DNA of 36,425 nucleotides from Actinomycetes bacterium (GTDB taxonomy: Bacteria; Actinomycetota; Acidimicrobiia; Acidimicrobiales; Bog-793): contig JAJZLV010000076.1 in assembly GCA_021803215.1 (NCBI GenBank), positions 1 through 36,425 of the forward strand, written 5' to 3'. Of the stretch, positions 10,473 through 28,662 are shown one piece after another. A model generated the notes under the pieces. The model did no database searches, was not told the origin of the DNA, and saw nothing but the letters and a program-made list of their open reading frames with translations. Numbering within the stretch: the stretch's first letter is position 1; each line of letters begins with the position of its first letter. The translations under genes were made by a program, and so were the position numbers.

Positions 10473-12053
10473 ATGCCAGAGAGCCAAGACCGTGTCAGCC
10501 TGCCCGGCAGCGAGCGCGCTCCGGCCCCTGGCGCCCGCCCGCTCGGCCCGGTGGACAAGGACGAGCCGGTCCGCCTCACGGTCATCCTGCGACGTCGCGC
10601 CGAGCTGCCCGACGACGTCCTGTCCGGCGAGCGGCAGCTCGGCATCGAGGAGCTCCGCCAGGCCCACGGTGCCAACCCGGCCGAGATGAGCCGGGTGGCC
10701 GAGCTCCTTCGAACGGCCGGAGCCGAAGTCATCGAGGCGGACCCGGGAAGCCGAAGACTGGTGGCGCACGGGACCGCCGGCCCGCTCGCCCGGCTCTTCG
10801 GTACCACCCTGCAGGCCGTCGAGAGCACCGACCCAGGCAGCGGGCAACCCGTGCGGCACCGACAACGCGTCGGGCCGCTCAGCCTCCCGGCCGAGTTCTC
10901 CGGCATCGTCACGGCCGTGCTCGGCCTCGACGACCGACCGCAGGCTCGGCCCCACCTGCGGGCCATCGCTCCGGAGGCGGCCCAGTCCTCCTTCACCGCC
11001 GATCAAGTGGCCAGGCTCTACGACTTCCCGGGCGGGACCGATGGCAGCGGTACGACGGTCGGGGTGGTCGAGTTGGGCGGCGGCTACTCTTTCTCGGACC
11101 TCACGAGCTACTTCGCCGCTTTGAACCTGGCCCTTCCGAGCATCACGGCCGTCGGGGTGGACGGAGCTGGCAACGCTCCGGGCGTCAGCCCCGGGGCGGA
11201 CAGCGAGGTGGCTCTCGACATCGAGGTGATCGGGGCCGCTGCTCCGAAGGCTGCCCAGCGGGTCTACTTCGCCCCCAACACCGACGCCGGCTTCCACGAC
11301 GCGGTGGCGAGCGCCGTGCACGCCTCACCGACTCCCGTCGCCATCAGCATCAGCTGGGGCGAGTCCGAGGACTCCTGGACCCCCCAGGGGAGGGAGGCCC
11401 TTGACGAGGCCGTGGCCGACGCCATCGCTGTCGGCATCACCGTGACGACCGCCGCCGGCGACAACGGCAGCTCCGACGGCATCTCTGACGGTCAGCCGCA
11501 CGTGGACTTCCCCTCTTCGAGCCCCTATTCCCTCTCGTGCGGAGGAACCCGCCTCGAGGCCGATCCGTTGCGGGGGATACAGAGAGAGATCGTCTGGGAC
11601 GACCTCCCCCTCGGCGGGGCCACAGGCGGTGGCGTGAGCGACGTCTACCCGACTCCGAGGTGGCAGGCCGCCTTGTCGCCGAGGCGAGCCGGCACCGCGA
11701 TCGCCGGTCGGGGCGTACCAGACGTGGCAGGGGACGCATCGCCCGAGACCGGCTATCTCGTGATGGTGGACGGCATCCAGCAGGTGGTCGGCGGCACCAG
11801 CGCGGTGGCGCCGCTCTGGGCGGCGCTTGTCGCCCGCCTCGCCCAGGCGCTCGGGCGTTCCCTCGGCTTGTTGCAACCGGCTCTCTACCAAGGAGCTGTG
11901 CCAGGGTCGTCGCCCGCCGGCTTTCGCGACATCACCTCGGGCGACAACGGCGCCTACAGCGCCGGGCCGGGCTGGGACCCCTGCAGCGGCCTTGGCTCGC
12001 CCGAGGGGAGCGCCCTTCTCTCGAGGATCAGCAAACCTGCCGGCTCTGCCTGA
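10473..12053 (+). CDS. S53 family serine-carboxyl peptidase (sedolisin/kumamolisin-like) with prodomain
   Basis: The 526-residue protein has the layout of a kumamolisin-type proenzyme. Residues 34-160 form an activation domain (VRLTVILRRR..., LVAHGTAGPLARLFGTTL, LPAEFSGIVTAVLGLD), followed by the catalytic domain. The triad is visible: E245 and D249 in DSEVALDIEVIG, oxyanion D330 in AAGDNGSS, and S443 in GGTSAVAPLW. The C-terminal DITSGDNGAYSAGPGWD gives the calcium site. S53 peptidases digest proteins at acid pH and are normally exported, yet no clear signal peptide precedes the prodomain, as in kumamolisin itself. The ATG at 10473 has AAAGGGG 6 bases upstream. It is convergent with the ferredoxin operon and stands alone. 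Confidence 0.93.
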   Translation: MPESQDRVSLPGSERAPAPGARPLGPVDKDEPVRLTVILRRRAELPDDVLSGERQLGIEELRQAHGANPAEMSRVAELLRTAGAEVIEADPGSRRLVAHGTAGPLARLFGTTLQAVESTDPGSGQPVRHRQRVGPLSLPAEFSGIVTAVLGLDDRPQARPHLRAIAPEAAQSSFTADQVARLYDFPGGTDGSGTTVGVVELGGGYSFSDLTSYFAALNLALPSITAVGVDGAGNAPGVSPGADSEVALDIEVIGAAAPKAAQRVYFAPNTDAGFHDAVASAVHASPTPVAISISWGESEDSWTPQGREALDEAVADAIAVGITVTTAAGDNGSSDGISDGQPHVDFPSSSPYSLSCGGTRLEADPLRGIQREIVWDDLPLGGATGGGVSDVYPTPRWQAALSPRRAGTAIAGRGVPDVAGDASPETGYLVMVDGIQQVVGGTSAVAPLWAALVARLAQALGRSLGLLQPALYQGAVPGSSPAGFRDITSGDNGAYSAGPGWDPCSGLGSPEGSALLSRISKPAGSA

Positions 12054-12303: not shown

Positions 12304-12720
12304 CTATCTGAGGAGGGGGCTGCCTCGCCCGGCTTTGCGCCGCACGAGCTCGCTCTTCGGGCATCGGGCGCCTCTGGCGCTCGGGCCGGAGCGGCAGCTG
12401 CTGCAGACCCACTCCCCTCCGGGGGGACGCCACATCATCGAGCTGCAGACCGGGCAGAGTGCCTCGCCCTGGCTGCATGCCCAACTGGCATAGCGGGCGG
12501 ACGACAGTGGGCATCCCCGCCCGAGACAGACCGCCTGGGTCGGGTCTCTCTCGAGGGCGCTCACCGGGCATACAGGCAGGCAGTCGAGACAGTCGTTGCA
12601 GCGCAGCGGGTCGACAATGTAGGTGACGAGGAAGTCTCCTGATTGGTAGATGGCGGCCGACCGACATGCCATCTCGCATGCTCCGCAGCCGATGCAGCTG
12701 TCGAGAACCCGGAGAGCCAC
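12304..12720 (-). CDS. Dicluster 4Fe-4S ferredoxin with C-terminal zinc-ribbon-like tail
   Basis: The 138-residue protein starts with two complete 4Fe-4S motifs: C9-x2-C12-x2-C15-x3-C19 and C41-x2-C44-x2-C47-x3-C51-P, separated by a 21-residue insert. An unusual 80-residue tail follows with C64, C69 and C81 and two CxxC knuckles (C88-x2-C91 and C105-x2-C108) that look like a zinc ribbon. It should be a cytoplasmic electron carrier. The start is a GTG at 12720 with AAGGAG 8 bases upstream. It is the last gene of a four-gene operon, 17 bases after the SCP2-like gene, and is the obvious electron donor for the diiron protein encoded two genes upstream. The ferredoxin part is certain; the role of the tail is unknown. 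Confidence 0.88.
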   Translation of the reverse strand: MALRVLDSCIGCGACEMACRSAAIYQSGDFLVTYIVDPLRCNDCLDCLPVCPVSALERDPTQAVCLGRGCPLSSARYASWACSQGEALCPVCSSMMWRPPGGEWVCSSCRSGPSARGARCPKSELVRRKAGRGSPLLR

Positions 12721-12737
12721 CGCGAGGCTCCTTCCGA

Positions 12738-13181
12738 TCAGCTGACCATCAGCTGGTGACCAAGGGAGTCGAACAGCGTCTGGAGGGTCTCCGCATACCG
12801 GAAGAACTTGTCCCTCCCGAGAGGGTCGGGCGACGAAACCTTGAGAGGCGTCTCGGCGATCGTGAGAGCGTTCAGGGTGTGGGCGCTGTCAGCCCGGCCG
12901 TTTCGCAGGATGTTGCGGATCATCTCCTGCCAGCTATCGAGATCACCCTCGAGAGTGGCGTCGGCGCCGAAGGCGTCGAGGTCGTCAAGCTCACCCTCGA
13001 AGGAGACGTCGTAGCCGTCGAAAGACAGGCCGTAGGAACGGGCCCGTCCGTCGTCCAACACCTTGAGCACCAGCCGGAAGTCGGCGAATCCCAAGCGCCG
13101 GTAGAGATCCGGGCGAGCCCCGGTGTCAGCCACCATCTGGTCGAACCAGGCAGGGGAGGGGAAGGTCGTCTCATCAGTCAT
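12738..13181 (-). CDS. SCP2 sterol-transfer-like protein
   Basis: The 147-residue product resembles the SCP2 fold: a beta-rich first half (FRLVLKVLDDGRARSYGLSF, DVSFEGELD) leading to ATLEGDLDSWQEMIRNIL and TLNALTIAETPLKVSS, the place where SCP2 proteins carry the 'sG.l....al..g.l.v.gd' segment. SCP2-like proteins bind lipids or other hydrophobic ligands and often sit beside oxidoreductases. No signal peptide is seen. The ATG at 13181 overlaps the diiron gene stop by 4 bases (ATGA), so translation is coupled. Here it may present a hydrophobic substrate to the diiron protein; that is inference, and the family call rests on pattern only. Confidence 0.62.
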   Translation of the reverse strand: MTDETTFPSPAWFDQMVADTGARPDLYRRLGFADFRLVLKVLDDGRARSYGLSFDGYDVSFEGELDDLDAFGADATLEGDLDSWQEMIRNILRNGRADSAHTLNALTIAETPLKVSSPDPLGRDKFFRYAETLQTLFDSLGHQLMVS

Positions 13182-14260
13182 GCCGGCACCTGTGCATCTA
13201 GGCCGGTCAACATCTGGGACGGCAGCTTCAGCCGCCCACGACGCGGCAGCCCTGCATACTCACAGCGCTGCAGGTACTCCGCGATCACCCGACCCCGCAG
13301 CAGGTCGGCCCCGGCGAGTCCGAGGTCCTCGGCCGCCTTCCTCGAGCCTGCGAGCAGGAGCGTCGTGGGCTCCACGACCTCAGGGGTCGAAAAGAGCATC
13401 CCGATGATCTCCTCGCCCTTGTCGAGGTAGCCGTGATAGTCCTCGGCCAGCGAGGGATCGCGCTCGAGCCGGTAGCGAAGGTGCATAGTGCCGTAGGCAA
13501 CATGGCGAGCCTCGTCCTGCATGCAGAGGCGGAAGATCTTCTTCTCGACCGGCGACGGTGCGATGAGCTCCCCGGCCCGGAAGAGCGAGAGGACGATTCC
13601 CTCTCCGAGCAGGTGCATGAGAGCCGAGCCCTCGTCGTAGCTGTCGGCGTCGAGGATCAACTTCAAGAAGCGCTCTACGACCGCCTTGGCCTTGCCGAGA
13701 CCTCCACCGTTGGCGAGCGCCCGCTTGCGGAAGACCTCGGTATGGCGCGCCTCGTCCATCACCTGGGTGCAGAGGAACATCTTCGCCTCGACGAAGTCGT
13801 GGTTGATCCGCCACACCCACTTGGCCGGAAAGTCCGACGCCACCATCTCGACCTCGGAGAGCACCGTGCTCAGCTGACACATGGCATGCTCGAGATCTGG
13901 ATCGAGCTCGGGCAGCTCGCCCCAGGGGATGTCCCTGGTGGCACTCCACTGCCGGCTCACCGCCTCCTCGTAGAGGTCGAGGAGGTTGTCGGCCCACACC
14001 TCGGACTTCTCATTGATGGTGTAGCCCATGTCCGGGACATCAGGGTCGACCTCAGAGCCCCTCGGCGCCATCGTCCGGCGGGGCGGGTGGTCCGGCACAT
14101 CACCGTAGGAGCCGACGGCGATGTCCCTCAGGGTGAGGCCGACCTTGCTCGGCCGGGCGCGCACCCCCCACTCTGAGCGGGTCTGCTCCAGCCATCCCCA
14201 ATCGAACCGGCCCTGTTGAGCCCGCTCGAGATAGGCGGAATCCACTGAGTCGACTGTCAT
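13178..14260 (-). CDS. Ferritin-like / R2-like diiron protein, probable oxidase or oxygenase
   Basis: The 360-residue protein has a full set of ferritin-like diiron ligands: E98 or E99 in LYEEAVSRQW, E170 and H173 in MDEARHTEVF, E220 in HLLGEGIVL, and E250 and H253 in QDEARHVAYG. The four-helix core with two DEARH motifs and the early DIPWGELPEL segment resembles ribonucleotide reductase R2-like and aminoarene N-oxygenase-like proteins, but no large R1 subunit is nearby, so nucleotide reduction is unlikely. The ATG at 14260 is preferred over upstream starts because GGAGGAGG lies just before it and it overlaps the upstream stop (ATGA). Neighbours are an SCP2-like protein and a ferredoxin, suggesting an O2-dependent oxidation of a hydrophobic substrate. 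Confidence 0.85.
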   Translation of the reverse strand: MTVDSVDSAYLERAQQGRFDWGWLEQTRSEWGVRARPSKVGLTLRDIAVGSYGDVPDHPPRRTMAPRGSEVDPDVPDMGYTINEKSEVWADNLLDLYEEAVSRQWSATRDIPWGELPELDPDLEHAMCQLSTVLSEVEMVASDFPAKWVWRINHDFVEAKMFLCTQVMDEARHTEVFRKRALANGGGLGKAKAVVERFLKLILDADSYDEGSALMHLLGEGIVLSLFRAGELIAPSPVEKKIFRLCMQDEARHVAYGTMHLRYRLERDPSLAEDYHGYLDKGEEIIGMLFSTPEVVEPTTLLLAGSRKAAEDLGLAGADLLRGRVIAEYLQRCEYAGLPRRGRLKLPSQMLTGLDAQVPA

Positions 14261-15633
14261 CGTGACCCTCCTCCCATTGCGCGGATCGAACCTCTGTCCC
14301 CGTGGTCGAAGACGTTCTCTGCCACGTGGGTGAAGCTGCGCAGCGTGCGGCTCGAAGGGTGCTTCAAGGTGACGGCGTGGGCACGGCTCGGGGCGGAGTC
14401 CGCCCAGAGTGCCATCCGGATGGCGAGGAGGGCGGCGCCCCCGCTGTGCCAGGGCCACAGGACGTCGTCGAGCGGCGACCACCGGGTACGGAAAGCGCTC
14501 GCCGGCAGAGCCTCCAAGAACCTGGCGACCTTGGCCATGTCGTCGAGGCGGTGGGCTTGGAAGCTCTCGACCAGCACGTCGAGGAGCTGCTCGGCTCCCT
14601 CTCCGGAGCCATCTCGCGCGACGGGCGGGCCGCCCTCCCTCTTGCTCTCCTCCCAGGAGCGCTGGAGGAGGGCGTGGAACGCAAAGCCCTCATGGAGACG
14701 AGCGGCGAGCGGACCTCCACCCTGGGCCCGCTTCAGGATCGGGCAGAGAACGCCGCTCTCGACCGAGTCATGGATGGCCACGGCTGCCAGCAGCCGCTCG
14801 CCCGCCCTCTCGCGCTCCGCGCCGGTGGACGCGGCGCCGAGGTCGTCGGCAAAGCGTGCGACCGAGCCGTCGAAGACCTCGAGCACCCGGCGGACCGAAG
14901 GCGCCTCGCCATGGGCCTCGCTCTTCAGCGCCTTGACGATCTCGCTGCGTGGAGAGCGGCCGGACCTGTCGTCGTGGAGAGGACCGAAGTGAGCCTGGCG
15001 CCATCCGGCCAGGCTCTCGATCACCCGCCCGCACAGGTCGCAGTCAGCCCGCTCTCCCGTCTCGCTCTCCCTCAGGCTGATGCTCAGCGCCTCGATCACC
15101 TGCTCGGCTTCCGTCCCAGCCACCGGGTAGAGGTTGTGCGGGGCCACCTCACTGCTGAGCGCCTGGAAGGACTGAAGCAGCTCGGACTTCCTGTCGTGCC
15201 CGCACCGCACCCGGTCGGCCAACGCCAACCCGTCCGGCAGCCCGTTGAGGATGGGGCAGACACCTTCTCGCGGCCCGGTCTCGGGCATCCCGACCGCTGG
15301 GCCGACGGCCTCCCGCAGGACCCGAACGAGATCGAGGCCGATCGAGAACTCGCTCCCCTCGCCGACGCCCGAGGCGTCGGGGAACACGAGCTCGCGCGGC
15401 AGGCGGGCGGCGACTCTTTCCAGCTCGGCCGTCCTCACGAGAGGCGAGCTCGCTCGCCTCGGGGCGTCTCCGGCCGTCCGGCTTTGACGCCGGCCGTAGC
15501 GGCGGTGGACCTGCAGGGCAGCCTTGAAGGCGGCGAATGCCACGACGCCGAGCAGGAGGCCCGGGAGCATGAGCGGCGCGAGAAGCACCGCGCAAGCTGC
15601 CAAGGCCGTGAGCAGCACGACAAGAAGACCCAT
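14257..15633 (-). CDS. Membrane-anchored protein with possible hemerythrin-like domains
   Basis: From the ATG at 15633 (GGAGG 7 bases upstream) the protein has 458 residues; an earlier ATG at 15744 has no comparable site. Residues 1-36 are a strongly hydrophobic anchor (two close stretches, LLVVLLTALAACAVLLAPL and LPGLLLGVVAFAAF), followed by a basic segment, so the bulk probably lies in the cytoplasm. The rest appears to hold two related helical halves, each with a C-P-I-L step (EGVCPILNGL, IHDSVESGVLCPILKRA); the second has the HxxxE spacing of hemerythrins but lacks a complete ligand set. A CDLC motif lies between. First gene of the operon, overlapping the diiron gene by 4 bases. It may dock the diiron complex at the membrane or sense O2 or iron. 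Domain identity is tentative. Confidence 0.7.
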   Translation of the reverse strand: MGLLVVLLTALAACAVLLAPLMLPGLLLGVVAFAAFKAALQVHRRYGRRQSRTAGDAPRRASSPLVRTAELERVAARLPRELVFPDASGVGEGSEFSIGLDLVRVLREAVGPAVGMPETGPREGVCPILNGLPDGLALADRVRCGHDRKSELLQSFQALSSEVAPHNLYPVAGTEAEQVIEALSISLRESETGERADCDLCGRVIESLAGWRQAHFGPLHDDRSGRSPRSEIVKALKSEAHGEAPSVRRVLEVFDGSVARFADDLGAASTGAERERAGERLLAAVAIHDSVESGVLCPILKRAQGGGPLAARLHEGFAFHALLQRSWEESKREGGPPVARDGSGEGAEQLLDVLVESFQAHRLDDMAKVARFLEALPASAFRTRWSPLDDVLWPWHSGGAALLAIRMALWADSAPSRAHAVTLKHPSSRTLRSFTHVAENVFDHGDRGSIRAMGGGSR

Positions 15634-16336: not shown

Positions 16337-16402
16337 GCCAGACAGTCCATGAGCCAGACAGCCAAGGAGCCAGACAGCCAAGGAGCTCGAGAGCCAGACG
16401 GC
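16335..16402. repeat. 16-bp tandem repeat in the leader of the second S53 gene
   Basis: The unit GAGCCAGACAGCCAAG is present exactly at 16351-16366 and 16367-16382, with a copy changed at its 3' end at 16335-16350 and a degenerate further copy (GAGCTCGAGAGCCAGAC) to about 16402. It lies 130-190 bases before the chosen start of the secreted S53 peptidase. It could be a regulator-binding array, or a slippage product; if translated from an upstream ATG it would add a short SQTAKEPD-type repeat. Confidence 0.75.
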
Positions 16403-16528
16403 GAGAGGCCTCCGGGCCGGGAGTCCCACCTCAACGAGGTGGAGCGCTCCAGCAGCTCTGAAAAGACCTCTTCCCAAAGAGAACAACCTATGAAAGGATG
16501 TGGCAGATCAGAGGGACGGAGGCAGGAC

Positions 16529-17830
16529 ATGTCGTCTGGTGGGACTTCCCGGCCAACTGGCAGCACCCGGCGCCGGGTCGGCACCTTGGCAGCGCTGCTG
16601 CTGGGTGCGGCCGGCACCCTCGTGGCGGTCGGAGCCCCCGCCGGGGCCTCCCAGGCACGGGGACCCGCGCCGGCCGGCCGGTCGGGAGCTGCAAGACCCG
16701 GCTCGGGAGTTGCCACTCCTCCCTTCCGCGTGAAGGTGATCGGCCGGCTGCCGGACGGTCGCGCCAAACTGAGCGCTGGCAGCCCGACCGGCCTCTCGCC
16801 GTCAGCGATCCAGTCCGTCTACAACCTCTCGGGACTCTCCGCCGGCTCGGGAGCCGGCTCGGGGCAGATCATCGCCATCGTCGACGCCTACCACGACCCG
16901 AACGCCCTCTCGGACTTGAACACCTTCAATTCCCAGTACGGCTACCCGGCACTCGCGAAGTGCTCCTCGCTCACGCAGTCAGGTCCCTGCTTCGAGCAGG
17001 CTGACCCGCAGGGCAAGCCCAAGGTGAACAGCGGCTGGGCGCTCGAAGAGTCGCTCGACATCGAGTGGGCCCACGCCGAGGCCCCAGCGGCAAAGATCGT
17101 CCTCGTGGAGGCAGCCAGCAACAGCGACACCAACCTGTTCAACGCTGTGAGCTACGCCAACAGCCTCGGGGCCACCGAGGTCTCGATGAGCTGGGGCGGC
17201 TCGGAATCCTCGAGCGAGACCAGCTACGACGGCGACCTTGCCCACAGCGGTACCCTCTACACCGCCTCGGCGGGTGACAGCGGCCACGGCGCCGAGTACC
17301 CGGCCGCCTCTCCCAACGTGGTCGCGGTCGGCGGCACCACGTTGAACGGCTGCAGCGGCACCTCCTGCTCCGGGTTCACGAGCGAGACGGCCTGGTCGAG
17401 CTCGGGAGGGGGCATCTCCTCTTACGAGTCGATCCCGTCATACCAGGCGGGCTACACAGGCCCTGTCTACGGCGCCTCGACGATAAGCGGTCTGACGGGC
17501 GGTCAGAGAGGGATCCCGGACGTCTCATTCGACGCCAACCCGAGCACGGGGGTCTCGGTCTACGACAGCACCCGCTACGAGGGCCAGTCCGGCTGGTTCA
17601 CTCTCGGAGGGACCAGCGTCGGAGCGCCCAACTGGGCCGGCATCCTCGCGGCCGGCCAGGCGGCTGGCCAGACGGCGCTGCAAGGAGACTCGAACATCTA
17701 CGGCGGTGGCTACTCGACCAACCTGCGAGACATCAAGAGCGGCACGAACGGCAGCTGTGGCACCGACTGCACGGCGGGGCCCGGCTACGACCTCGTCACC
17801 GGTCTCGGAAGCCCGATCAACTACCCGTAG
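16529..17830 (+). CDS. Secreted S53 family peptidase without a standard prodomain
   Basis: From the ATG at 16529 (GGAGG 6 bases upstream) the product has 433 residues; the frame stays open to 16349 but those starts lack good ribosome sites. A signal peptide is clear: TRRRVGTLAALLLGAAGTLV, then APAGA cleavage region. After a short Pro/Gly/Ala linker the catalytic domain begins at about residue 85 (LSPSAIQSVYNLSG). Catalytic residues are E173 and D177 (EESLDIEWAH), oxyanion D250 (ASAGDSGHG) and S363 (LGGTSVGAPNW). Paired cysteines (CSGTSC, CGTDC) fit an extracellular enzyme, and a C-terminal DIKSGTNG gives the calcium site. The roughly 130-residue activation domain typical of S53 is absent, unlike in the other S53 gene of this window. 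Probably an acid-active secreted protease. Confidence 0.92.
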   Translation: MSSGGTSRPTGSTRRRVGTLAALLLGAAGTLVAVGAPAGASQARGPAPAGRSGAARPGSGVATPPFRVKVIGRLPDGRAKLSAGSPTGLSPSAIQSVYNLSGLSAGSGAGSGQIIAIVDAYHDPNALSDLNTFNSQYGYPALAKCSSLTQSGPCFEQADPQGKPKVNSGWALEESLDIEWAHAEAPAAKIVLVEAASNSDTNLFNAVSYANSLGATEVSMSWGGSESSSETSYDGDLAHSGTLYTASAGDSGHGAEYPAASPNVVAVGGTTLNGCSGTSCSGFTSETAWSSSGGGISSYESIPSYQAGYTGPVYGASTISGLTGGQRGIPDVSFDANPSTGVSVYDSTRYEGQSGWFTLGGTSVGAPNWAGILAAGQAAGQTALQGDSNIYGGGYSTNLRDIKSGTNGSCGTDCTAGPGYDLVTGLGSPINYP

Positions 17831-18340: not shown

Positions 18341-19351
18341 ATGACCTCGGCCCTCGAGCAAGCCCTGCAACTCAAGAGGTCGGGCCGGCTGGACGAGGCG
18401 GTCATCGCCCTCGAAGGTGCGCTGGCCCAAGCACCGCACGACGGGTTCGCGCTCGGCCACCTGGCCGAGGTGCACTTGAGGCGAGGCCGGATCGACGCCG
18501 CCGCCGCCGCGCTGGACCGGGCCGAGGCTGAGGTCGGCACGACCGCCTTCACGGCCCGCCTTCGCGGTGACCTGTTGGTGAAACGGGGCGACTACGCCGG
18601 GGCGGCCCGCTCCTACGCCGACGCGGTGGCGCTCGGTGAGACCGGCACCTGGTCGCTGGTGCGCCTGGCTCGCTGCCGCCTGCGTACGAAGGACCTCGAA
18701 GGGGCCCGGGGGGCGGCCTCCGAGGCGCTTGAGCGGGAGCCGTCGTCGGCCGAGGCGTGGACAGTGCTGGGCGATCTGGCCCTACGCGAGGGGCGCCTCG
18801 ACGAGGCCGAGTCGATGTACGGGCGGGCACACGAGCACGCCCCCGCCGACGGGTGGGCCTACGCCAAGCTGGTGGAGGTCCGCCTGAGACGGTTACCGGC
18901 GGAACGGCGCGAGCGGGAGATCGAGGTGCTGCTCAAGACCACCGGCCGGGACAACGAGCACCTCCTTGGCGTGCTGGCCCGCCTGCGACGCGAGAGCGGC
19001 GACGACGAGGCCGCGGCCCGGGCCTGGGCGCAGCGCGCCGCCCGCACGGGGGACCTTTTCGCCCGCGAGCAGGCAGCGTTCGCGCTGCGCCGGGCCGGCC
19101 AGCTCGACGAGGCCGCCCGGGCGCTCGGCGCCTGCCTGGTCGACGATCCCGACAACATCATCCTGTTCCAGACCTACGTCCGCATGCAGCGCGAGCGCGA
19201 TGCCCTCGAGGATCTTCGTACCACGCTCGAAGCGGCGCTCGGGCGCGCTTCGGCGCGCCGGCGGGGCGCCTACCTCGGGCAGCTGCGCCGGCTGCCCTCG
19301 CCGCTTGAAGGTGGCGACTCCGGGCTCGAAGCCGGCGACGGCGAGAAGTGA
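18341..19351 (+). CDS. TPR-repeat protein, first gene of the ATPase-PglZ operon
   Basis: The 336-residue protein is almost wholly tetratricopeptide repeats: about eight helix pairs with the small-residue pattern A-L-x-x-G-R-x-x-E-A (RSGRLDEAVIALEGALAQAP, RGRIDAAAAALDRAEAE, REGRLDEAESMYGRAHEHAP, RAGQLDEAARALGACLVDDP). No signal, membrane segment or enzyme motif is present, so it is likely a cytoplasmic scaffold. The ATG at 18341 has GGAG 5 bases upstream. Its stop overlaps the GTG start of the giant ATPase by 4 bases (GTGA), so the two proteins are almost surely made together and probably interact. TPR proteins are known adaptors in several defence systems, but no specific family is claimed. 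Confidence 0.88.
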   Translation: MTSALEQALQLKRSGRLDEAVIALEGALAQAPHDGFALGHLAEVHLRRGRIDAAAAALDRAEAEVGTTAFTARLRGDLLVKRGDYAGAARSYADAVALGETGTWSLVRLARCRLRTKDLEGARGAASEALEREPSSAEAWTVLGDLALREGRLDEAESMYGRAHEHAPADGWAYAKLVEVRLRRLPAERREREIEVLLKTTGRDNEHLLGVLARLRRESGDDEAAARAWAQRAARTGDLFAREQAAFALRRAGQLDEAARALGACLVDDPDNIILFQTYVRMQRERDALEDLRTTLEAALGRASARRRGAYLGQLRRLPSPLEGGDSGLEAGDGEK

Positions 19352-22300
19352 CCAGGACCGAGCGGGCCGAGCCCGCCCTCGGCGACCTGCTCGACCTCGC
19401 CCAGGTCGACACCGTCGTCCGTCTCGACGGCAGCGACGGGCGTCTCGGGGAACTGGTCCTCACCGGCGACGTGGTGGCCAGCCTGACCCAGATCCTGGCC
19501 GCCGCCGCCGGTGAGGGGGGCGCCGGATTCTTCGTGGTCGGCCCGTTCGGGTCAGGCAAGTCCCACTTCCTGGCTGCTGCCGGGGAGCTGCTGGCCAGGC
19601 CGGGCGACCCGGCCGTACCGGCCCGATTGGCGAGATCCGCCGAGGCGGTAGCCCCTTTTACTCCGGTGGCCGTGCCGCTGGTCGACTACCGGTCCACCTC
19701 CGCTTTGGACGACGTGGTGGCCGAGAGGGCCCGGGCGGCGCTCGGCGCCTCCGGCCCGCCCGGCGGGGTCGACCGGCGGGCCACTTGGGACGGCCTGCTC
19801 GACGCCACCCCCGGACACAGCCTGGTGCTGCTGCTCGACGAGCTGAGCGAGTGGCTGCGGGCCAAGCAGGGGCCGGCGCTGACCGAGGATCTGCGGTTCT
19901 TGCAGTTCCTCGGGGAGTGGGCGGCCGAGCGGCGGGTGATCGTGCTGGCCGCCCTGCAGGAGAGCATCGAGGAGGTCGCCAACGTCTCCCGCCGGGAGCT
20001 GGCCCGCATCCGGGATCGTTACCGCCCGCCGCTGGCCCTGTCCATGCGCCACGTGGAGGATCTGGTGCGTGCCCGGCTGGTCCAGCTCCGACCGGGCGCC
20101 GACGAGTGGATCGCCCGGGCCCATAAGGAGCTGACCGGGGCGTTCCCGTCCTGGCCGGTGGACGCCGAGCGCTTCGCCCGCTGTTACCCGTTGCATCCCG
20201 ACACGCTGTCGCTGCTCGAAGGTCTGCGGTTCCTCTTCTCCCAGCAGCGCGGCGTGGTGGACTTCGTCTGCCGGCGGCTGCGCGACGCCCTAGGGCGAGG
20301 TTACGCCGAGCTGATCACCCCTGATGAGGTGTTCGACCACTTCCGGGGCCGGTTGCTCGAGCGGCCGGAGACCGCAGCGCTGGCGGAAACCGTCGTCGCC
20401 TACCACGAGCGGGCCGCCGATGAGCTCTTGGACCCGGAGGACCGGCTGCTGGCGTTGCGAACCGTCAAGCTGCTGTGTCTCCTCTCCGCCTCCCCCCTCG
20501 AGCGGCCCCGTCGAGCGGCCGAGCTGGCCGCCATGTTGTTGGTGCAGGTGAGCGATCTTGACCCGGCTGCCAACACCGCCTACCTGGAAACCGCCGTGCT
20601 CGGCCCGCTCGTCGAGCGCGGCGCCTACGTCGTCACCTCTGCCGACGGCACCTACTCGGTGGAGGCCCAGGCCGATGCGGTCGTGATCGCCCGCGACCGG
20701 GTCGAGCAAGCCCGCGCCGAGACCAGCCCGGCGGACCGCCGGATGGTCGCCACGCTGACGGCGCTCGGCTCGTCGGCCCAGCTGCCCCTGCAGCTTCTCT
20801 CCGAGCTGGGCCCGAGCCGGCGGGACGTCATCTGGCACAACACGCTGCGGGCGGTGCTGGTCGCCGGCGCGCGGCTGCTCGACCTCACCCCGGCGGATGC
20901 CGCCGAGCTGGTCGAGCAGGCCCAGGCAGTCGGAGCGGAGGGCTGCCTGCTCGTCGCCGAGGCCGAGCCGGTCGACGGGCCGGCCGCCGCCGAGCGGGCC
21001 GCGGCCCTGGTGTCGGAGCGGCTGTCGGTGTGGGTGCCGGCTCCGTGGCGGCCGGAGGAGGTGGGCACCGCCGTCGAGCTGTGCGCCAGGGCTCGGGTGC
21101 TGGAGGCGTGCCGGGAGGAAGGACGCTCCGAGCTGGTCGAGGTGCTCGAACGCAGCGCCGACGCCGACCGTGCGCTTGCGAGGGACCTGCTGCGCCGGGT
21201 GTACTTCGAGGGCTCGCTCCTGCCCGGCGGGATCGATCTTGCGGCCCTGTCCGGCCTGACCTTCGATCGTCAGCTGCCGTCGCTCGTAGACCCTCTGCTG
21301 TCGGGACTGCATCCCCGCCACCGGGAGGTGGCGCCGAGAGGCGAGCTGGTCGGCGACCGGCTCCTGCGCCAGCTGGTCGAGGATGTCATCGTCCCTGGGC
21401 GGCTGAGCGCCCCGGCTCTGGCCCGCGACCGGCTGCGGCCGCTGGTCGAGGGCTACCTGGTCCCGCTCGGGCTGGCCCGGCTGCGCGCCGACGGGGCGCA
21501 GGTCGCTCCGGACCCGGCGCGCTCGCCGGCGGTGGCCGAGCTGCTGGGTCTGGTGGGCGACTCCGAGCCGGTGGCCGGCCCAGAGTTGTTGGCCGAGCTG
21601 GCCGCCGGCCCACTCGGCCTCACCGGACCCGAGGCGGTGCTGCTCCTGAACGCCTGCGTCCAGACCGGACTGGTCGAGCAGTGGCGAGGCCGGCGCCGCA
21701 GCCAAGAGCCGTTCCTGTCGGTCACCTCGGCGGACAGGTTCGGTCCCGGCGAGCTGGTCGGCACGACCGTCCGGGCGGCCGTGGCCGAGCTGAGCCCGCT
21801 CACAGGCACCGGGCCGTTTGAGCCGTGGACCACGGCGGTGCAGAGCGAGGCCTGGGAGAGAGCCAAGAGCTGGCTGGCACAGCGCCGCGAGGATCTCGCC
21901 GAGGTGCGTTCGGGTTTGGCCTACCTGGCCGAGGTGCCTGCCTTCTCGACGGTCGACACCGCCGAGGTCATTGCCGATGCAGAGGCGGTCGGTGCGGTCG
22001 TCGAGAAGGTCGACCCTCGCTCAGGCGCTCCGGCGGGGCTGGCCGCCCTGGTCGAAGCGACCGCCGGCCACGAGGACCTCGCCGCGACGGGGCGGCGGCT
22101 GGCCGCCCTGGCCCGCTTCTTGCGCGACGACCTGCGCCGGGTGGAAGAGGCCGTCGCCTACGTAACCCACCCGGAGCTCACCGTCCCGGCCGATGACGAA
22201 GCTCTGCCAGCGCGAAGAGCCGAGGTCCAGGCGGCCGTCGACGACATGCTCCGCTTGGCCGCCGCCGACCGGGTCGACACCTTGCTCTCCGCCTTCCGGG

Positions 22301-24378
22301 ATTTCCGCTCCTCCTACCTGGCGCTCTACCAGCAGGCCCACGACAGCTTCCAGCAAGCCCTCGACCCGGAACGGGTGACGGCCGTGCGTGACGACCCCGC
22401 CTACCAGGCGCTCGTCCACCTCTCGGCCATAGGAGCGCTGGCCGTGCCCGACGACCGGATCAAGGTGGATCGGCTCCTCGCCGCCGTCCCCTCCGCCTGC
22501 CGGCGCCAGGTGGCGGTGGAGCTCAACTGGAAGCCCCGCTGCGGGTGCGGCTTCGAGCTCGGCGACCGGCCGGTCGCCTTCGACCCGGCAGAGGTGATCG
22601 CCGTGGTCCGGCACGGCCTCGAGGAGTACCGCCTCGAGCTGGCGCGCCCGGAGGTGGCCAGCCGACTGGAGGCCGCCGCCTCCGACCTGGCCCGCCTCGG
22701 CCGCGACGAGCTGGCCCATGACCTGACGCGCCTGACGCACGCCGAGACCGACGAGCTGATGCGGCTGGCCTCACCAGAGCTGGTGCGCACGGCCGGCGAG
22801 GTGCTCTCCGGCAGTCAGATCATCACAATCCGGGACCTGGCCGCCCTCCGGGAGAACGTGATCGGTCGCCGATACCCCCGGCGCAGGCTGGCCGAGATCA
22901 TCGAGGCGTGGGTCGATCCCGATGGCGACCTGCCCCCGGGCGGGTTCGTGGAGATCGTGGACAGCACTGACCCTGCCGGAACAGCCCCGGCCGCCCCCCG
23001 GTCGATCCCGGTTGGGGGGTCGGCCACCGCGGCCTTCCTGGCCAGGCGGTTTCCTGGGCTGGCAGCGCTGCTGCCCACCCGCCAGGCAGGCGACGCTTTT
23101 TGGCTGTCGGCATGGTGGGCCGGCCACCCGGCGCCGCCGGCATGGCTGCCGGCCGGCTTGCTGGACCAAGCAGACCGTCTGGCCGAGGCGGCCGAGGCGG
23201 CCCGAGCGGACCGCGGCGCCCTGGCCGAGCTGGCCGACCTCGACAGCCGGGTGGGGCCGGCGACGCTCGCCGGCAAGCAGATGGCCGCCTGCTTGGACCT
23301 GGGGTCCCGCCCGGCGGGCGAGATCGCCACGCTTTTGAGCCGCGAGCGGCTGCTGCGCCACCCGATCAGGCTGGCCGCCAGCCAGCTGCTGCAGCGGATG
23401 GGTGCCGACTTGGCGGTGGCCGCTCTCGTCGAGGCACCCACCGACCACCTGCTGGTTGAGCCCGGCGAGACCGAGGTGCTCCAGTTCGCCACCCGGGCGG
23501 CCGCCCATCTGGCCGCCCTCGAGCGGGATTTCTCCGATGCGGGCGGGCCGCTGCTGGTCGAGCACGCTTACCCCCTCCACTACGCGCCGGTCCGGGAGCT
23601 CCTCAGCCGTGCCGGCCTGGCGGCGGCCACCACGGGGCTGGTGGACAGCAGCGCTCTGGCCCCCCTCGAGCGCACCGCCGAGCGGGTCCTGCGCTCGGTC
23701 GACGGCCGCTTCGCGGACCTGGCCGAAGCAGGCTTCCCCGGGTGCCTGGCCGTGTGGGACGTCGGGCGGGAGGTCATCGAGCCGCTCTTGGCCGAGCACG
23801 GCCGGGTGGCGGTACTGGTGGTGGACGCCATGCGAGCCGATCTAGCCGCCCCGGTGCTGAGCTCGGTGCCCCGCCAGATGAGCAGCCTGCGCTGGGCGGT
23901 GGTCCCGGCCCCCACCCGCACCGCCGAGTCGGTGTCCTCCATGTGCCTCGGCCGCCCGGTGCCCGGCGGCGCGGCTGGGGACGGCTGGGGCCGGGTCGGA
24001 AGCGGTGTAGTGCCGTTCGCCCATCTGGGCTACGAGTCACAGCTGCTCATTGGCGCCGACAGCGACCGCCAGGCGGAGCAACTTCGCAGCCTGTGGAGCG
24101 CCGGACCGCCGCTTTCTGTCGCGGTAGCCACCAGCGTGGACGAGCGGCTGCACCGTTCGTCGGTGGAGCTGGCCGCCCTGATCGACGAGGCGGTGACCGC
24201 CCTCGGCCGGAGGGTCCTGCCGTCGCTCACCGCCATCCCGCCTTCCGTGCCACTGGTGGTGCTGGCCGACCACGGCTTTGTCGCCAACCCGCAATGGGGT
24301 CGCGGTCCCGACGGCCGCTACCGGCACGGCGGATCCTCCCCCGAGGAGTGTGTCGTACCGGTCGCCGTGTTCGCCTGA
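19348..24378 (+). CDS. DUF6079/BrxC-like P-loop ATPase fused to a C-terminal PglZ domain
   Basis: The 1676-residue protein begins with an ATPase of the DUF6079/BrxC type: FFVVGPFGSGKSHFL contains Walker A GPFGSGKS (65-72), LVLLLDELSEWL is Walker B (159-170), then LQESIEE and a basic RIRDRYRPPLALSMRHVEDLV block and FLFSQQRGVVDFV, all typical of DUF6079. The middle is helical with a CGC pair at 1065-1067. The last 200 residues resemble the PglZ alkaline-phosphatase fold: VLVVDAMRADL with metal Asp at 1493 and LVVLADHGF with D1641 and H1642. BrxC and PglZ are usually separate proteins of BREX phage-defence systems; here they are one chain. The start is a GTG overlapping the TPR stop. No methyltransferase domain is present. 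A role in antiphage defence is inference. Confidence 0.88.
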   Translation: MTRTERAEPALGDLLDLAQVDTVVRLDGSDGRLGELVLTGDVVASLTQILAAAAGEGGAGFFVVGPFGSGKSHFLAAAGELLARPGDPAVPARLARSAEAVAPFTPVAVPLVDYRSTSALDDVVAERARAALGASGPPGGVDRRATWDGLLDATPGHSLVLLLDELSEWLRAKQGPALTEDLRFLQFLGEWAAERRVIVLAALQESIEEVANVSRRELARIRDRYRPPLALSMRHVEDLVRARLVQLRPGADEWIARAHKELTGAFPSWPVDAERFARCYPLHPDTLSLLEGLRFLFSQQRGVVDFVCRRLRDALGRGYAELITPDEVFDHFRGRLLERPETAALAETVVAYHERAADELLDPEDRLLALRTVKLLCLLSASPLERPRRAAELAAMLLVQVSDLDPAANTAYLETAVLGPLVERGAYVVTSADGTYSVEAQADAVVIARDRVEQARAETSPADRRMVATLTALGSSAQLPLQLLSELGPSRRDVIWHNTLRAVLVAGARLLDLTPADAAELVEQAQAVGAEGCLLVAEAEPVDGPAAAERAAALVSERLSVWVPAPWRPEEVGTAVELCARARVLEACREEGRSELVEVLERSADADRALARDLLRRVYFEGSLLPGGIDLAALSGLTFDRQLPSLVDPLLSGLHPRHREVAPRGELVGDRLLRQLVEDVIVPGRLSAPALARDRLRPLVEGYLVPLGLARLRADGAQVAPDPARSPAVAELLGLVGDSEPVAGPELLAELAAGPLGLTGPEAVLLLNACVQTGLVEQWRGRRRSQEPFLSVTSADRFGPGELVGTTVRAAVAELSPLTGTGPFEPWTTAVQSEAWERAKSWLAQRREDLAEVRSGLAYLAEVPAFSTVDTAEVIADAEAVGAVVEKVDPRSGAPAGLAALVEATAGHEDLAATGRRLAALARFLRDDLRRVEEAVAYVTHPELTVPADDEALPARRAEVQAAVDDMLRLAAADRVDTLLSAFRDFRSSYLALYQQAHDSFQQALDPERVTAVRDDPAYQALVHLSAIGALAVPDDRIKVDRLLAAVPSACRRQVAVELNWKPRCGCGFELGDRPVAFDPAEVIAVVRHGLEEYRLELARPEVASRLEAAASDLARLGRDELAHDLTRLTHAETDELMRLASPELVRTAGEVLSGSQIITIRDLAALRENVIGRRYPRRRLAEIIEAWVDPDGDLPPGGFVEIVDSTDPAGTAPAAPRSIPVGGSATAAFLARRFPGLAALLPTRQAGDAFWLSAWWAGHPAPPAWLPAGLLDQADRLAEAAEAARADRGALAELADLDSRVGPATLAGKQMAACLDLGSRPAGEIATLLSRERLLRHPIRLAASQLLQRMGADLAVAALVEAPTDHLLVEPGETEVLQFATRAAAHLAALERDFSDAGGPLLVEHAYPLHYAPVRELLSRAGLAAATTGLVDSSALAPLERTAERVLRSVDGRFADLAEAGFPGCLAVWDVGREVIEPLLAEHGRVAVLVVDAMRADLAAPVLSSVPRQMSSLRWAVVPAPTRTAESVSSMCLGRPVPGGAAGDGWGRVGSGVVPFAHLGYESQLLIGADSDRQAEQLRSLWSAGPPLSVAVATSVDERLHRSSVELAALIDEAVTALGRRVLPSLTAIPPSVPLVVLADHGFVANPQWGRGPDGRYRHGGSSPEECVVPVAVFA

Positions 24379-24407
24379 GCGGACCCGGCGGGCGGGTCAT
24401 GAGAGCG

Positions 24408-24430
24408 GCCCGGAGACAAGCGCTCCGGGC
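24408..24430. terminator. Hairpin between convergent genes, likely two-way terminator
   Basis: GCCCGGAG (24408-24415) and its exact complement CTCCGGGC (24423-24430) enclose a 7-base loop. The 8-bp GC-rich stem lies in the 81-base gap between the stop codons of the ATPase-PglZ gene and the convergent helicase gene, so it can work for both. No run of T follows on either side, which is common for hairpins in high-GC actinobacteria; a Rho-dependent or imperfect stop is also possible. Confidence 0.6.
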
Positions 24431-24459
24431 TGAGATGAAGGCTCCGGCGTGATCCCAGC

Positions 24460-27400
24460 TCAGTCGAGCAGAGCCCGGATGTCCGCCGCGGACAGCCGGG
24501 CGGTCTCGAAGCCGCCGCCAGACATCACGCTGTCGAACAGGGCGGCCTTCTTGGCCTTGAGGGCCATCACCTTCTCCTCGATGGTGTCCTTGGCTACCAT
24601 CCGGTACACCATCACCTTGCGTGTCTGGCCTATGCGGTGCACCCGGTCGACGGCCTGGGCTTCGGTCGCCGGGTTCCACCACGGGTCGAGCAGGATGCAG
24701 TAGTCGGCCTCGGTCAGGTTGAGCCCGAACCCGCCGGCCTTGAGGCTGATGAAGAACACCGGTGCTTCGCCGCGTCTGAACCGGGCGATCACCTCGTCGC
24801 GCTTGCGGGTGCGCCCGTCCAGATAGCAGTGCCCGATACCGCCGGCCTTGGCTCTGGCCGCCGCTTTGGACAAGAAGCGGGTGAACTGGCTGAAGACCAG
24901 CACCCGGTGGCCGTCGGCGACGATCTCATCCAACATCTCGGCCAGGAGGTCAAGCTTGGTGGCCGGCACGCCCTCGCAGCGCTCTTCGACCAGCGCCATG
25001 TCCAAGGCAGCCTGCCGGAGGACGGTCAGGGAGCGGAGTATCTCGATGTGGTGACGGTCCATCTCGCCGAGCAGGCCGAGAATCTTCTGGCGTTCCCGCT
25101 GGAGGCGGGCCTGGTAGAGCCTCCGGTGCCTGGGCGCCAACTCGAGCTCCAGCACGTGCTCCTGTTTGTCTGGCAGCTCGGAGGCGACCTGATCCTTGGT
25201 GCGCCTCAGCATGAGCGGTCGGATGCGCCGCCGCAGCTGCGCCAGGCGTTCGGCGTCACCCTTGCGCTCGATCGGGACGCTGTAGCGCTCGGCGAAGCGC
25301 TCGGCCCGGGGGAACAGACCCGGGGCCGTGATGGAGAGCAGGGCCCACAGCTCCTTCAGGTTGTTCTCGATCGGAGTACCGGTCATCGCCACCTTGAACG
25401 GGGCCGGCAGCGCCTTGGCCCTCAGGTGCGCGATCGCGCGCGGGTTCTTCACGAACTGGGCCTCGTCGAGGAACAGGCCGGCCCACTCGATGCCTTCGTA
25501 GTCGTCGTACTCGAGGCGGAACAGGGTGTAAGAGCAGATCACCAGGTCGGACTTCTCGGCCAGGTCGGCCAGACCCACCCAGCGGCGGGCCTTGGTCTCG
25601 GCGACGGTCGAGACCCGAAGGTCGGGTGCGAACCGGCGACATTCGTGAGCCCAGCTCTCCACGACGCTCGTCGGCGCGACGACGAGGAACGGCTTGTCGA
25701 CGCCGAGCTCCCGGCGGGCGCGGCAGACGAGAGAGATGGCCTGCAGGGTCTTGCCGAGCCCCATGTCGTCGGCGAGTATCCCGCCGAGGCGGTGGGAGTA
25801 CAAGAACGCCAACCACTCGTAGCCGGACCGCTGATATGGGCGCAGCGTGGCCTCCACGCTCGCCGGCAGCTCTGCCGGCGCGACGTCGCCGGCTCCCGCC
25901 AGTGCACGCACCGCCGCCTCCCACTCCCCGGCCTGGGCAGTGACCACGCCGAGGCGCTGGAGGTCCTCCCAGAGCCCGGCCTGGAAGCGACTCAGGCGGA
26001 TCTCGTTCGGATCCCGGCCGTCGCGATCCTGCAGCGCTCTGGCCTCCGCGATCAGCTCGGCCAGCTCGGCCAGCTCGGGACGGTCGAGGGCGAAGTAGGT
26101 GCCCGACGGGAGCAGCATGTGGCTCTGGCCCTCGGCGAGAGCGACGAACAGCTCCTGGAAGACGACCCGCTCGCCGTCGATGCTCACCTCGACCCGCAGG
26201 TCGAACCAGTCCCCGTCGACGCCCCGCCCGGTCGATCCGAGCGACACCACGGGGGCGCTCTGGGTCTCGCGGTAGTCAGGGGCGTCACCTTCCTGCTCGA
26301 CGAGCAGGCCGGGGAGACCCGAAAGTACCGGGAGCAGGTCGTTGACCAGACGGGCGGAGTCCATGCCGACCAGCTCGACCGAGGTGGCCAGCCGGTCGCC
26401 CTCCCAGTGCGGCTCCAGCATGGCCGGAACGATCGGGCGGACCGTCTCGGTGGTCGCCGCCACCACGCCCTCCAGCTCCGGTTCGAGCCCGGCTCCTTCC
26501 CACAGGGGATCCCTCGACGCCGAGCCTTCCAGGGCTCGCCCCCAGCTGGCCACGCAGCGTGTGTTGTGGTGGCGGATAGAGAGAACCAACAGCAGGGATG
26601 GGAGGGCCGGCAGCTCGACCGATCCATCGCTGGACGCCAGCGCGACCGAACGAGCCAGCCGCGGGTAGAAGTCTTGCCAGAACTTCTCGCGCTGTCGCTG
26701 TGGTACCTCGATCGCCGGGCGGGCGATCAGCGCCTGCTGACCTGGGTTCAAAGGAGAGGAGAAGGGAGCCAGGCTCAGCTGCAGGCCCCCCTTTGGCCTC
26801 TGTCCTCGTTGCCACCAGGCCAGGCCGTGAGGCGGCGAGCCGACCATCACGCACGACTCCAGGGGTACCCGCTCCAGACCTGCTTGGACATGGGGCTGCA
26901 TCCTCAGGTCCCCCCCGTCGGCCAGCAGGTCGAGTCCCACCGCCGCCGGGGTGGGCACCAGGCGGACCGGTCCAGCCACCGGGCCGCTCGACACGAGCGG
27001 GATGCCGATCTCCTTGGCCTCCGCCAGCAGGTCCCACAGACGACGGCTCGTCACGTCCTCCAGCCACAGAGGGACATCGGGTGAGTAGCTCGAGTACTCG
27101 TAGCTGCTGTACCCCGACGACAGGCGGGTCAGGGCCCGCAGCTCCCGCAGCAGTGCCCTCCTTTCAGCGGAGGTGCCAACGGTCCCGTAGCTGTAGTCAA
27201 GCTTGGACCAAGACGTTCCCGTCCGGACCCAATTGCCGCTCGGACTGCGGACCACCGGGCGTACCTCGATACCCGGACCGGTGGAACCGCTCCTCGGCCT
27301 CCGGCGGTTGGCGACCAGCTGGAACTGCAGCGCCAGCCCCGACTCCTCGCCCGCGCCGGCGTCGGCCAAGCTCTCGACGACCTGTAACAGCGGTTTCTGC

Positions 27401-27804
27401 CAGGACGCGGCCGCCCGCGCTCTTCGAACCGGCGGCGCGCTCCGCACGGCCCGAGGCAGGCGCGTCGTGCCCGGCACGCCGGCAGCGCTGGAGCGGGGCG
27501 AGCCGTCGGCAACTCCCGAGGTCAGGAGGAGGGCGGCAACATGCTTGCAGTTCCGGCCGACCGGGCAGCTGCACTCCCCCTGCACCGCCTTGGCCAGTCC
27601 GCCCGGCGACCTGGTGAGGGTGGCCTCGACCTGGTAGGGCAGCGGGTCGCGGCCTTGGACCTCTCCGACGACGGTGTCGGACTCGGGTCCGAGGCTGTAG
27701 TCGATCACCGCGCCCGACGTGGCGTAGGACCACCCCCGAGCAAACGTGGCTGGGTCGAAGAGCCGGCTCACCACGGCACAGTCGACGGTCGCCGGATCGG
27801 CCAT
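24460..27804 (-). CDS. SNF2-family helicase/translocase with N-terminal SWIM zinc finger
   Basis: From the ATG at 27804 (GGGAG 7 bases upstream) the protein has 1114 residues; the frame stays open to 28110 but those extra 102 codons look non-coding. A SWIM finger is at C78-x-C80-x5-C86-x-H88 (ECSCPVGRNCKH). The SNF2 core has motif I DDMGLGKT with K685, motif II LFLDEAQ with D780 (DEAQ rather than DEAH), motif III MTGTPIENNLKELWAL, and in the second lobe ISLKAGGFGLNLTEAD, DPWWNPATEAQAVDRVHRIGQ with the arginine finger. It should be an ATP-driven double-stranded DNA translocase. It converges on the ATPase-PglZ gene. SWIM-SNF2 proteins also occur alone in actinobacterial genomes, so membership in a defence system is plausible, not proven. 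Confidence 0.92.
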   Translation of the reverse strand: MADPATVDCAVVSRLFDPATFARGWSYATSGAVIDYSLGPESDTVVGEVQGRDPLPYQVEATLTRSPGGLAKAVQGECSCPVGRNCKHVAALLLTSGVADGSPRSSAAGVPGTTRLPRAVRSAPPVRRARAAASWQKPLLQVVESLADAGAGEESGLALQFQLVANRRRPRSGSTGPGIEVRPVVRSPSGNWVRTGTSWSKLDYSYGTVGTSAERRALLRELRALTRLSSGYSSYEYSSYSPDVPLWLEDVTSRRLWDLLAEAKEIGIPLVSSGPVAGPVRLVPTPAAVGLDLLADGGDLRMQPHVQAGLERVPLESCVMVGSPPHGLAWWQRGQRPKGGLQLSLAPFSSPLNPGQQALIARPAIEVPQRQREKFWQDFYPRLARSVALASSDGSVELPALPSLLLVLSIRHHNTRCVASWGRALEGSASRDPLWEGAGLEPELEGVVAATTETVRPIVPAMLEPHWEGDRLATSVELVGMDSARLVNDLLPVLSGLPGLLVEQEGDAPDYRETQSAPVVSLGSTGRGVDGDWFDLRVEVSIDGERVVFQELFVALAEGQSHMLLPSGTYFALDRPELAELAELIAEARALQDRDGRDPNEIRLSRFQAGLWEDLQRLGVVTAQAGEWEAAVRALAGAGDVAPAELPASVEATLRPYQRSGYEWLAFLYSHRLGGILADDMGLGKTLQAISLVCRARRELGVDKPFLVVAPTSVVESWAHECRRFAPDLRVSTVAETKARRWVGLADLAEKSDLVICSYTLFRLEYDDYEGIEWAGLFLDEAQFVKNPRAIAHLRAKALPAPFKVAMTGTPIENNLKELWALLSITAPGLFPRAERFAERYSVPIERKGDAERLAQLRRRIRPLMLRRTKDQVASELPDKQEHVLELELAPRHRRLYQARLQRERQKILGLLGEMDRHHIEILRSLTVLRQAALDMALVEERCEGVPATKLDLLAEMLDEIVADGHRVLVFSQFTRFLSKAAARAKAGGIGHCYLDGRTRKRDEVIARFRRGEAPVFFISLKAGGFGLNLTEADYCILLDPWWNPATEAQAVDRVHRIGQTRKVMVYRMVAKDTIEEKVMALKAKKAALFDSVMSGGGFETARLSAADIRALLD

Positions 27805-28662
27805 CAGGGTCTCCCTCATCTCAGCGATGGAGGATACAAGCGAGTCGATGGCGGGACGTGGATAGGCGAGCTCAGCCAGCCCGCGCGGCTTCAGCCCCGT
27901 GACAGCCAGCTGCTGCCTCTCCGATGCTCTCACCTCTCCTCCAGGCGAGAAGCGCAGGTCTCGAGCGCCAACAGCCCCTTTCCATCGAGAACGACGAGCT
28001 GCACCATCGCAGAGCTCAGCCCTGAGAACCTGCCCGGCGACGCCAGGGATCGAGTTGCTCGCCCGGCCTGAGCTTGACTTCGAGGCTCTCATAGCGCGGT
28101 GTCTCGCCATGATCCATCCCGGATCGAGAGAGCCATGCCGGATCCAGAACGTGGGAGGAGCCGCTCTGGCAGCCCGGCTCCCGGTACAGCTTCGAGGACC
28201 GACGCACCTCCCGAGCGGTCTCCCGGGCGCTCAGGCTGGCCTCAGGAGGCCTCGCACCGCCCACCGGGGCAAGGGTCTTCCACCCCCGAGCAAGCGGGCG
28301 AGGGCACCGGCAAGAAGCTCTGGCCACGCGACGCCCTCGAGCCGAGCAGAGCCGACAAGAGCGGGCGGTAGGTACCAGGAGCGGCGGCGCGGGGAAGTCG
28401 AACGGTGTCGGCCGGCATCCCGGCTGCCTGGAAAGTCGTCTCACCGAGAGACCTGTCGGCCCTTGGCGATGCCGAGGCATCCCCATCGTCCCCGACCAAC
28501 CGCCAGATCAGACACTGCTCAGAGCAGCTCGATCCCCTCCCACCGATCCTCCCCTTCGTGGAGGCAGAGCTAATCGGCTGACCGAGATGACAGTTCCCGG
28601 AGCTCGTCTTGCGGCCCGAGCATGGGCGGTACAGCCGCGCACATACGCTCGTCTTGAGACGG
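27805..28662. other. Gap of 858 bases without a recognised gene
   Basis: Several overlapping frames of 80-224 codons exist on both strands, but all are rich in Arg, Ser and Pro and none shows a known motif. The part nearest the helicase start (27805-28110) probably contains its promoter and leader. A plus-strand frame at 28099-28371 and minus-strand frames at 28016-28486 and 28242-28499 were read and not accepted. No tRNA, repeat array or clear hairpin was found. Confidence 0.5.

Follow-up and report, generated by a model that had tools for sequence, protein, structure and literature searches.

Introduction

Cyanobacterial aldehyde-deformylating oxygenase (ADO) has a diiron site of four Glu and two His residues, is fed by ferredoxin and acts on a hydrophobic substrate. 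Other ferritin-like proteins are the R2-like ligand-binding oxidase (R2lox), which has no known SCP2 partner, and the R2 subunits of ribonucleotide reductase, some classes of which lack a radical Tyr. Most nonheme diiron hydroxylases use two His and four carboxylates (PMC12101540), and R2lox binds a fatty acid (PMC6399176). The N-oxygenases DnfA, AurF and CmlI have a seventh ligand in a 3-His/4-carboxylate site, a His four residues before the last Glu (His209 and Glu213 in DnfA) (PMC9478400). Ubiquinone hydroxylation involves the SCP2-domain accessory factors UbiJ and UbiT, and the SCP2 domain of UbiJ binds hydrophobic intermediates (PMC6747719). Here we examine four genes at positions 12304-15633 of a 36,425-nucleotide stretch of DNA (contig JAJZLV010000076.1, hereafter the window) from an Actinomycetes bacterium (GCA_021803215.1, a 2.64-Mb assembly of 148 contigs). 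They encode a protein with a hydrophobic N-terminus (gene 1), an R2-like diiron protein (gene 2), an SCP2-fold protein (gene 3) and a ferredoxin (gene 4).

Our data demonstrate that the diiron and SCP2-fold genes form an obligate pair in nearly all loci sampled, with the ferredoxin as a frequent third member. The gene set is previously undescribed and widespread in bacteria, and it is unnamed in Pfam, NCBIfam and the literature searched. We propose, with moderate confidence, that genes 2-4 encode a ferredoxin-reduced, O2-activating diiron oxidase whose hydrophobic substrate would be presented by the obligate SCP2-fold partner.

Results

The four window proteins were searched by tblastn against the loci of 80 relatives, and a stricter count was then based on an SCP2-like gene lying directly downstream of the diiron gene on the same strand. 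This arrangement is found in 79 of the 80 loci, with a median of 45 bases between the aligned ends; in the lone exception (L086) the sequence stops 597 bases past the diiron match. Grouped mostly by record labels, the pairing holds in 55/55 Actinomycetota, 7/8 Chloroflexota and 15/15 Myxococcota, Delta or other proteobacterial loci, as well as in the single locus from Gammaproteobacteria and the single one labelled Acidobacteria. Among 296 genomes of the class, the SCP2-like family occurs in 24, all 24 of which also carry the diiron family (Fisher p about 8e-36, a value uncorrected for relatedness that overstates independence). Five genomes of this sample have a diiron match and no SCP2 match; these are part-profile matches only (1e-46 to 1e-57) and look like a sister family. 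Among 198 genomes of the phylum, the two families occur together in three of three. The ferredoxin gene comes next in 52 Actinomycetota loci, in 7 Chloroflexota loci and in the gammaproteobacterial locus. The closest relatives of the window's module come from Acidimicrobiia-type metagenome-assembled genomes, and one carrier of the module, Aciditerrimonas ferrireducens (L039), is culturable. No viral carriage of the module was found, and a plasmid search returned only partial matches at 27-29%.

The layout described in the first-pass annotation is present in the sequence: four open reading frames on the minus strand, all at the coordinates first assigned, joined by ATGA overlaps at 14260/14257 (gene 1 and diiron gene) and 13181/13178 (diiron and SCP2-like genes) and by a 17-base gap (12721-12737) between the SCP2-like and ferredoxin genes (Table 1). 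Within this gap, a ribosome-binding-like stretch, GGAAGGAG (12735-12728), precedes the ferredoxin start codon. The same annotation regarded the four genes as a self-contained module and proposed a neighborhood search for their co-occurrence. That search bears out the conserved association of genes 2-4 and excludes gene 1, which has no homologue in any of the 80 loci. The arrangement of genes 2-4 is far beyond chance, and the place of gene 1 is not.

Table 1. Genes of the locus and predicted diiron ligands, in window coordinates.
Feature	Position	Strand	Description and basis
Gene 1	14257..15633	(-)	458 aa, hydrophobic N-terminus; ATGA overlap with the diiron gene; outside the conserved module
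Gene 2, putative R2-like/AurF-like diiron oxidase	13178..14260	(-)	360 aa; ligands, AlphaFold2 model, fold matches
Gene 3, SCP2-fold protein	12738..13181	(-)	147 aa; model, Z 12.7 to 2cx7, neighbour in 79/80 loci
Gene 4, 2[4Fe-4S]-type ferredoxin	12304..12720	(-)	138 aa, GTG start; Pfam Fer4_7 6.8e-9, Cys conservation
Diiron ligands E138, E170, H173	13849-13847, 13753-13751, 13744-13742	(-)	Predicted, invariant in relatives
Diiron ligands E220, E250, H253	13603-13601, 13513-13511, 13504-13502	(-)	Predicted, invariant in relatives

The diiron protein was initially read as R2-like with all six ligands, and this reading holds: the four Glu and two His residues of Table 1 do not vary among 48 module proteins, nor in the sister and paralogous proteins compared with them. 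The first ligand is taken as E138 and not E136 because only E138 is kept in the sister proteins. The set fits the two-His/four-carboxylate pattern of most nonheme diiron hydroxylases (PMC12101540). An AlphaFold2 model (predicted local distance difference test score, pLDDT, 88.3) matches ADO (Z 21.7), the azoxy synthase VlmB (20.2), R2lox (19.8) and MMO hydroxylase (18.8). These O2-activating enzymes support the oxidase reading at the level of a predicted structure; as closely ranked ferritin-like folds, they select no function among themselves.

None of the known families accounts for this protein. ADO is the top structural match, whereas the diiron protein has about 115 extra N-terminal residues and gives no PF11266 match at E values up to 1; no gene for acyl-ACP reductase was recognized in the annotated module flanks. 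With R2lox it shares the fold (Z about 19-20 over about 230 residues) and the four-Glu/two-His site, and it scores 39.7 bits against a cut-off of 194 for the NCBIfam R2lox model. Ala141 and Met215 occupy the positions of the Val and Tyr that form the R2lox ether crosslink, which we take to lie three residues after the first Glu and five before the third. The radical Tyr of R2, four residues after the first His ligand, is replaced by an invariant Phe177. Similarities to the N-oxygenases AurF, CmlI and VlmB include the fold and the DExxH pairs with a second-sphere Asp, whereas the gene partners of those enzymes are unlike those of the module.

These similarities raise the alternative that the enzyme N-oxygenates amines or hydroxylamine in the manner of AurF, CmlI and DnfA. 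VlmB ranks high among the fold matches, the top PDB hit of the diiron protein by sequence is a VlmB homologue (6d9f), nitrogen-oxide genes lie near some loci, and AurF/CmlI (PF11583) matches weakly at 17.9 bits (E 0.0018). This score, however, is below the gathering cut-off of 29.6, and the seventh-ligand position, four residues before the last Glu and occupied by the third His ligand in AurF, is Cys246 (13525-13523) in 48/48 module proteins and Val or Cys in divergent proteins. We therefore regard an N-oxygenase as highly improbable. A Cys-ligated diiron site is likewise not claimed, since Cys246, although constant throughout the module clade, gives way to Val in the four divergent-branch proteins examined.

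In a tree of diiron proteins, those paired with an SCP2-like gene fall into one group (98/98), beside sister proteins lacking such a gene (99/94). The module's diiron proteins form a clade of their own. Midpoint rooting was used and some long branches join one another, so the tree supports a single origin without proving it. The sister-family proteins (L118 1057-2496, L119 and L120) show a weak TusA-like N-terminal match (best E 1.7e-4, below the cut-off). One divergent diiron gene (G538, L157 6021-7183) is split into two overlapping frames by a frameshift or an assembly error.

The designation of gene 3 as SCP2-like stands on a confident structure model and lacks support from Pfam or NCBIfam. 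The AlphaFold model (pLDDT 92.3) reaches Z 12.7 over 123 residues to Thermus SCP2 (2cx7), which is sufficient for the SCP2 fold in a predicted model, and it also matches human and insect SCP2; the best Foldseek hits are to UbiJ-SCP2 (6.3e-5 to UbiJ). At the sequence level, 52 members gave no match to the Pfam SCP2 profile, and the best PDB hits of a family profile were to Thermus SCP2 at E 0.065-0.082. UbiJ and UbiT share with gene 3 this fold and, putatively, the role of a hydrophobic substrate holder paired with oxidative enzymes (PMC6747719). Their partners are flavin monooxygenases or UbiU-UbiV, whereas that of the module is a diiron protein, and no Ubi genes were recognized in the annotated flanks; the likeness is a functional analogy and carries no claim of membership.

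Gene 4 had been called a dicluster ferredoxin, as its Fer4_7 match and two CxxCxxCxxxC motifs confirm. The eight cluster Cys are 98-100% conserved among 44 members, and a C-terminal extension of the Actinomycetota type holds eight further Cys (91-98% in the same members). Ferredoxins of the Chloroflexota type are shorter, most of them 83-102 aa long.

The genes flanking the module were compared across lineages. In L105 and L108 the SCP2-like gene is followed, 38-39 bases downstream, by a qNor-related gene; in L090 and L107 such a gene is farther away. Nitric oxide (NO) dismutases are distinguished by the change of His560 to Asn and of a catalytic-site Glu to Gln and by the loss of the quinol site (PMC10286720, PMC3413370). 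All four predicted proteins carry the signatures GISHN (HN for HH) and FST(M/L)QV (Q for E), and in L108 the quinol-site residues are changed relative to 3ayf. A NO-dismutase-like gene at 65% identity or above was found in 5 of 23 non-actinomycetal carrier genomes and in none of 147 further genomes from the phylum of one carrier (Fisher p 3e-5, between groups that differ in phylum make-up and with related carriers). This linkage is suggestive only, and such neighbors hint at an O2-using function of the module. A broader proposal would be that the module represents a new diiron oxygenase class with the SCP2-fold protein built in as the subunit that presents the substrate. In some Myxococcota/Delta lineages, the O2 for this oxygenase would come from NO through the NO dismutase encoded next to it. 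We offer this tentatively and think it unlikely.

The neighborhood also bears on a second alternative, in which the diiron protein would be a ferredoxin-driven scavenger of O2, peroxide or NO, with a rubrerythrin- or flavodiiron-like role, and the SCP2-fold protein a structural subunit, no organic substrate being oxidized. Such a role would suit the NO-dismutase-like genes near some loci, the lack of fixed metabolic neighbors, the occurrence of stand-alone three-gene units and, in actinomycetal loci, the nearby Rrf2-type regulators (10 loci), polyferredoxin (12) and Fer4/GltD-like flavoprotein (12). However, the closest folds are substrate-oxidizing enzymes, an obligate partner with a ligand-binding fold would be odd for a scavenger, and a divergent branch of the family sits among catabolic genes; we judge a scavenger unlikely. 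The polyferredoxin/GltD-like pair, which the window's genome carries on another contig, was rejected as a fixed electron donor, polyferredoxin being present in only 4 of the 24 module genomes of the class sample.

In the divergent branch (L151, L152, L153 and L157), Amidohydro_2 and Hydantoinase_B genes lie beside the diiron and SCP2-like genes, with Hydantoinase_A also in L153 and L157 and a ferredoxin gene in L151 and L152. This context would suit a catabolic oxygenase of a cyclic amide, ketone or aromatic compound, whose product would pass to amidohydrolases and hydantoinase/caprolactamase-type enzymes. It is, however, confined to that branch and not found in the window's own clade, and as all four members examined have Val in place of Cys246 the chemistry there may differ; we consider this explanation quite improbable. 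Elsewhere, a Chloroflexota module is preceded immediately by two radical SAM genes (L085 4696-7094) of the heme-synthesis types AhbC/NirJ and TIGR04053/AhbD. A cluster of a molybdopterin oxidoreductase, a Fer4_11 protein and an ethylbenzene-dehydrogenase-type subunit, annotated in L094, flanks the module in L084 and L094 (one Chloroflexota and one Myxococcota locus). A single shared pathway was sought among the neighbors, and none is common to all loci annotated.

Gene 1 belongs to a more local history. Of 60 relatives, only G023 (68%) and G030 have homologues at useful similarity, neither of them beside an intact module, and gene 1 was rejected as a fourth module member because it is not conserved with the module. 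In G023 the homologue is followed by ATGACAGTCGACTCAG, which agrees with the opening codons of the diiron gene in the window before the sequences diverge. This relic of a diiron gene start lies at L166 1599-1642, and two intact G023 modules are on other contigs. Its position behind the homologue suggests that a shared ancestor probably had gene 1 next to a diiron gene; this association is restricted to this family and lies outside the general module. "Membrane-anchored helical protein" is an acceptable description of gene 1, and its only family resemblance is a sub-threshold match to hemerythrin (E 0.068). Hemerythrin was rejected: the G023 homologue gives no match and the motif residues are altered in the G030 homologue. 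Since gene 1 is not part of the conserved module and is absent from the relatives' loci, the idea that the module acts at the membrane is without basis.

Outside the locus, two plus-strand open reading frames for sedolisin-like proteases flank the module. The one at 10473-12053 has a pro-kumamolisin activation domain (5.5e-8); the one at 16349-17830 was called from sequence alone and has no Pfam match at 1e-5. Farther along (18341-28110) are grouped a TPR protein (18341-19351), a DUF6079 protein of 1676 aa (19348-24378) and, on the minus strand, an SNF2-type helicase of 1216 aa (24460-28110). The combination of DUF6079 and helicase suggests a possible phage-defence cluster.

Discussion

The first-pass annotation knew of no named system with this gene set, and our comparisons concur: the diiron protein fits no named family, and literature searches on the gene combination returned nothing relevant. 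A model based on our data is that the 2-His/4-carboxylate site of the ferritin-like protein, of R2/AurF-type fold, would activate O2 after reduction by the ferredoxin, or by some other reductant in lineages without one. The SCP2-fold partner would bind a hydrophobic substrate and deliver it to the diiron enzyme or shield it there, much as UbiJ and UbiT are thought to hold ubiquinone intermediates for hydroxylases. The reaction could be a hydroxylation, a desaturation or another oxidation. The gene pairing, the conserved ligands, the predicted folds and the clade are direct results of the analysis; we infer O2 activation, electron supply by the ferredoxin and a hydrophobic substrate from family and fold.

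Several observations weigh against this oxidase model. No ferredoxin gene stands beside the module in any of the 13 Myxococcota/Delta loci with enough flank, and it is missing in L071 too, so a ferredoxin encoded with the module cannot be essential to it. The flanks vary from lineage to lineage and therefore fix no pathway. The model assigns no role to the invariant Cys246 and Tyr256 of the diiron protein, and the SCP2 fold may instead serve as a dimerization or structural domain.

The strict pairing of a diiron protein with a lipid-carrier fold over four or more phyla marks an uncharacterized reaction, one that probably depends on O2 and acts on a compound that is probably hydrophobic. It also suggests a wider role, beyond ubiquinone synthesis, for SCP2-fold proteins as accessories of oxidative enzymes. 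Finally, the NO-dismutase-like neighbors provide a rare genomic case in which O2 production inside the cell and a specific candidate consumer of that O2 may be linked.

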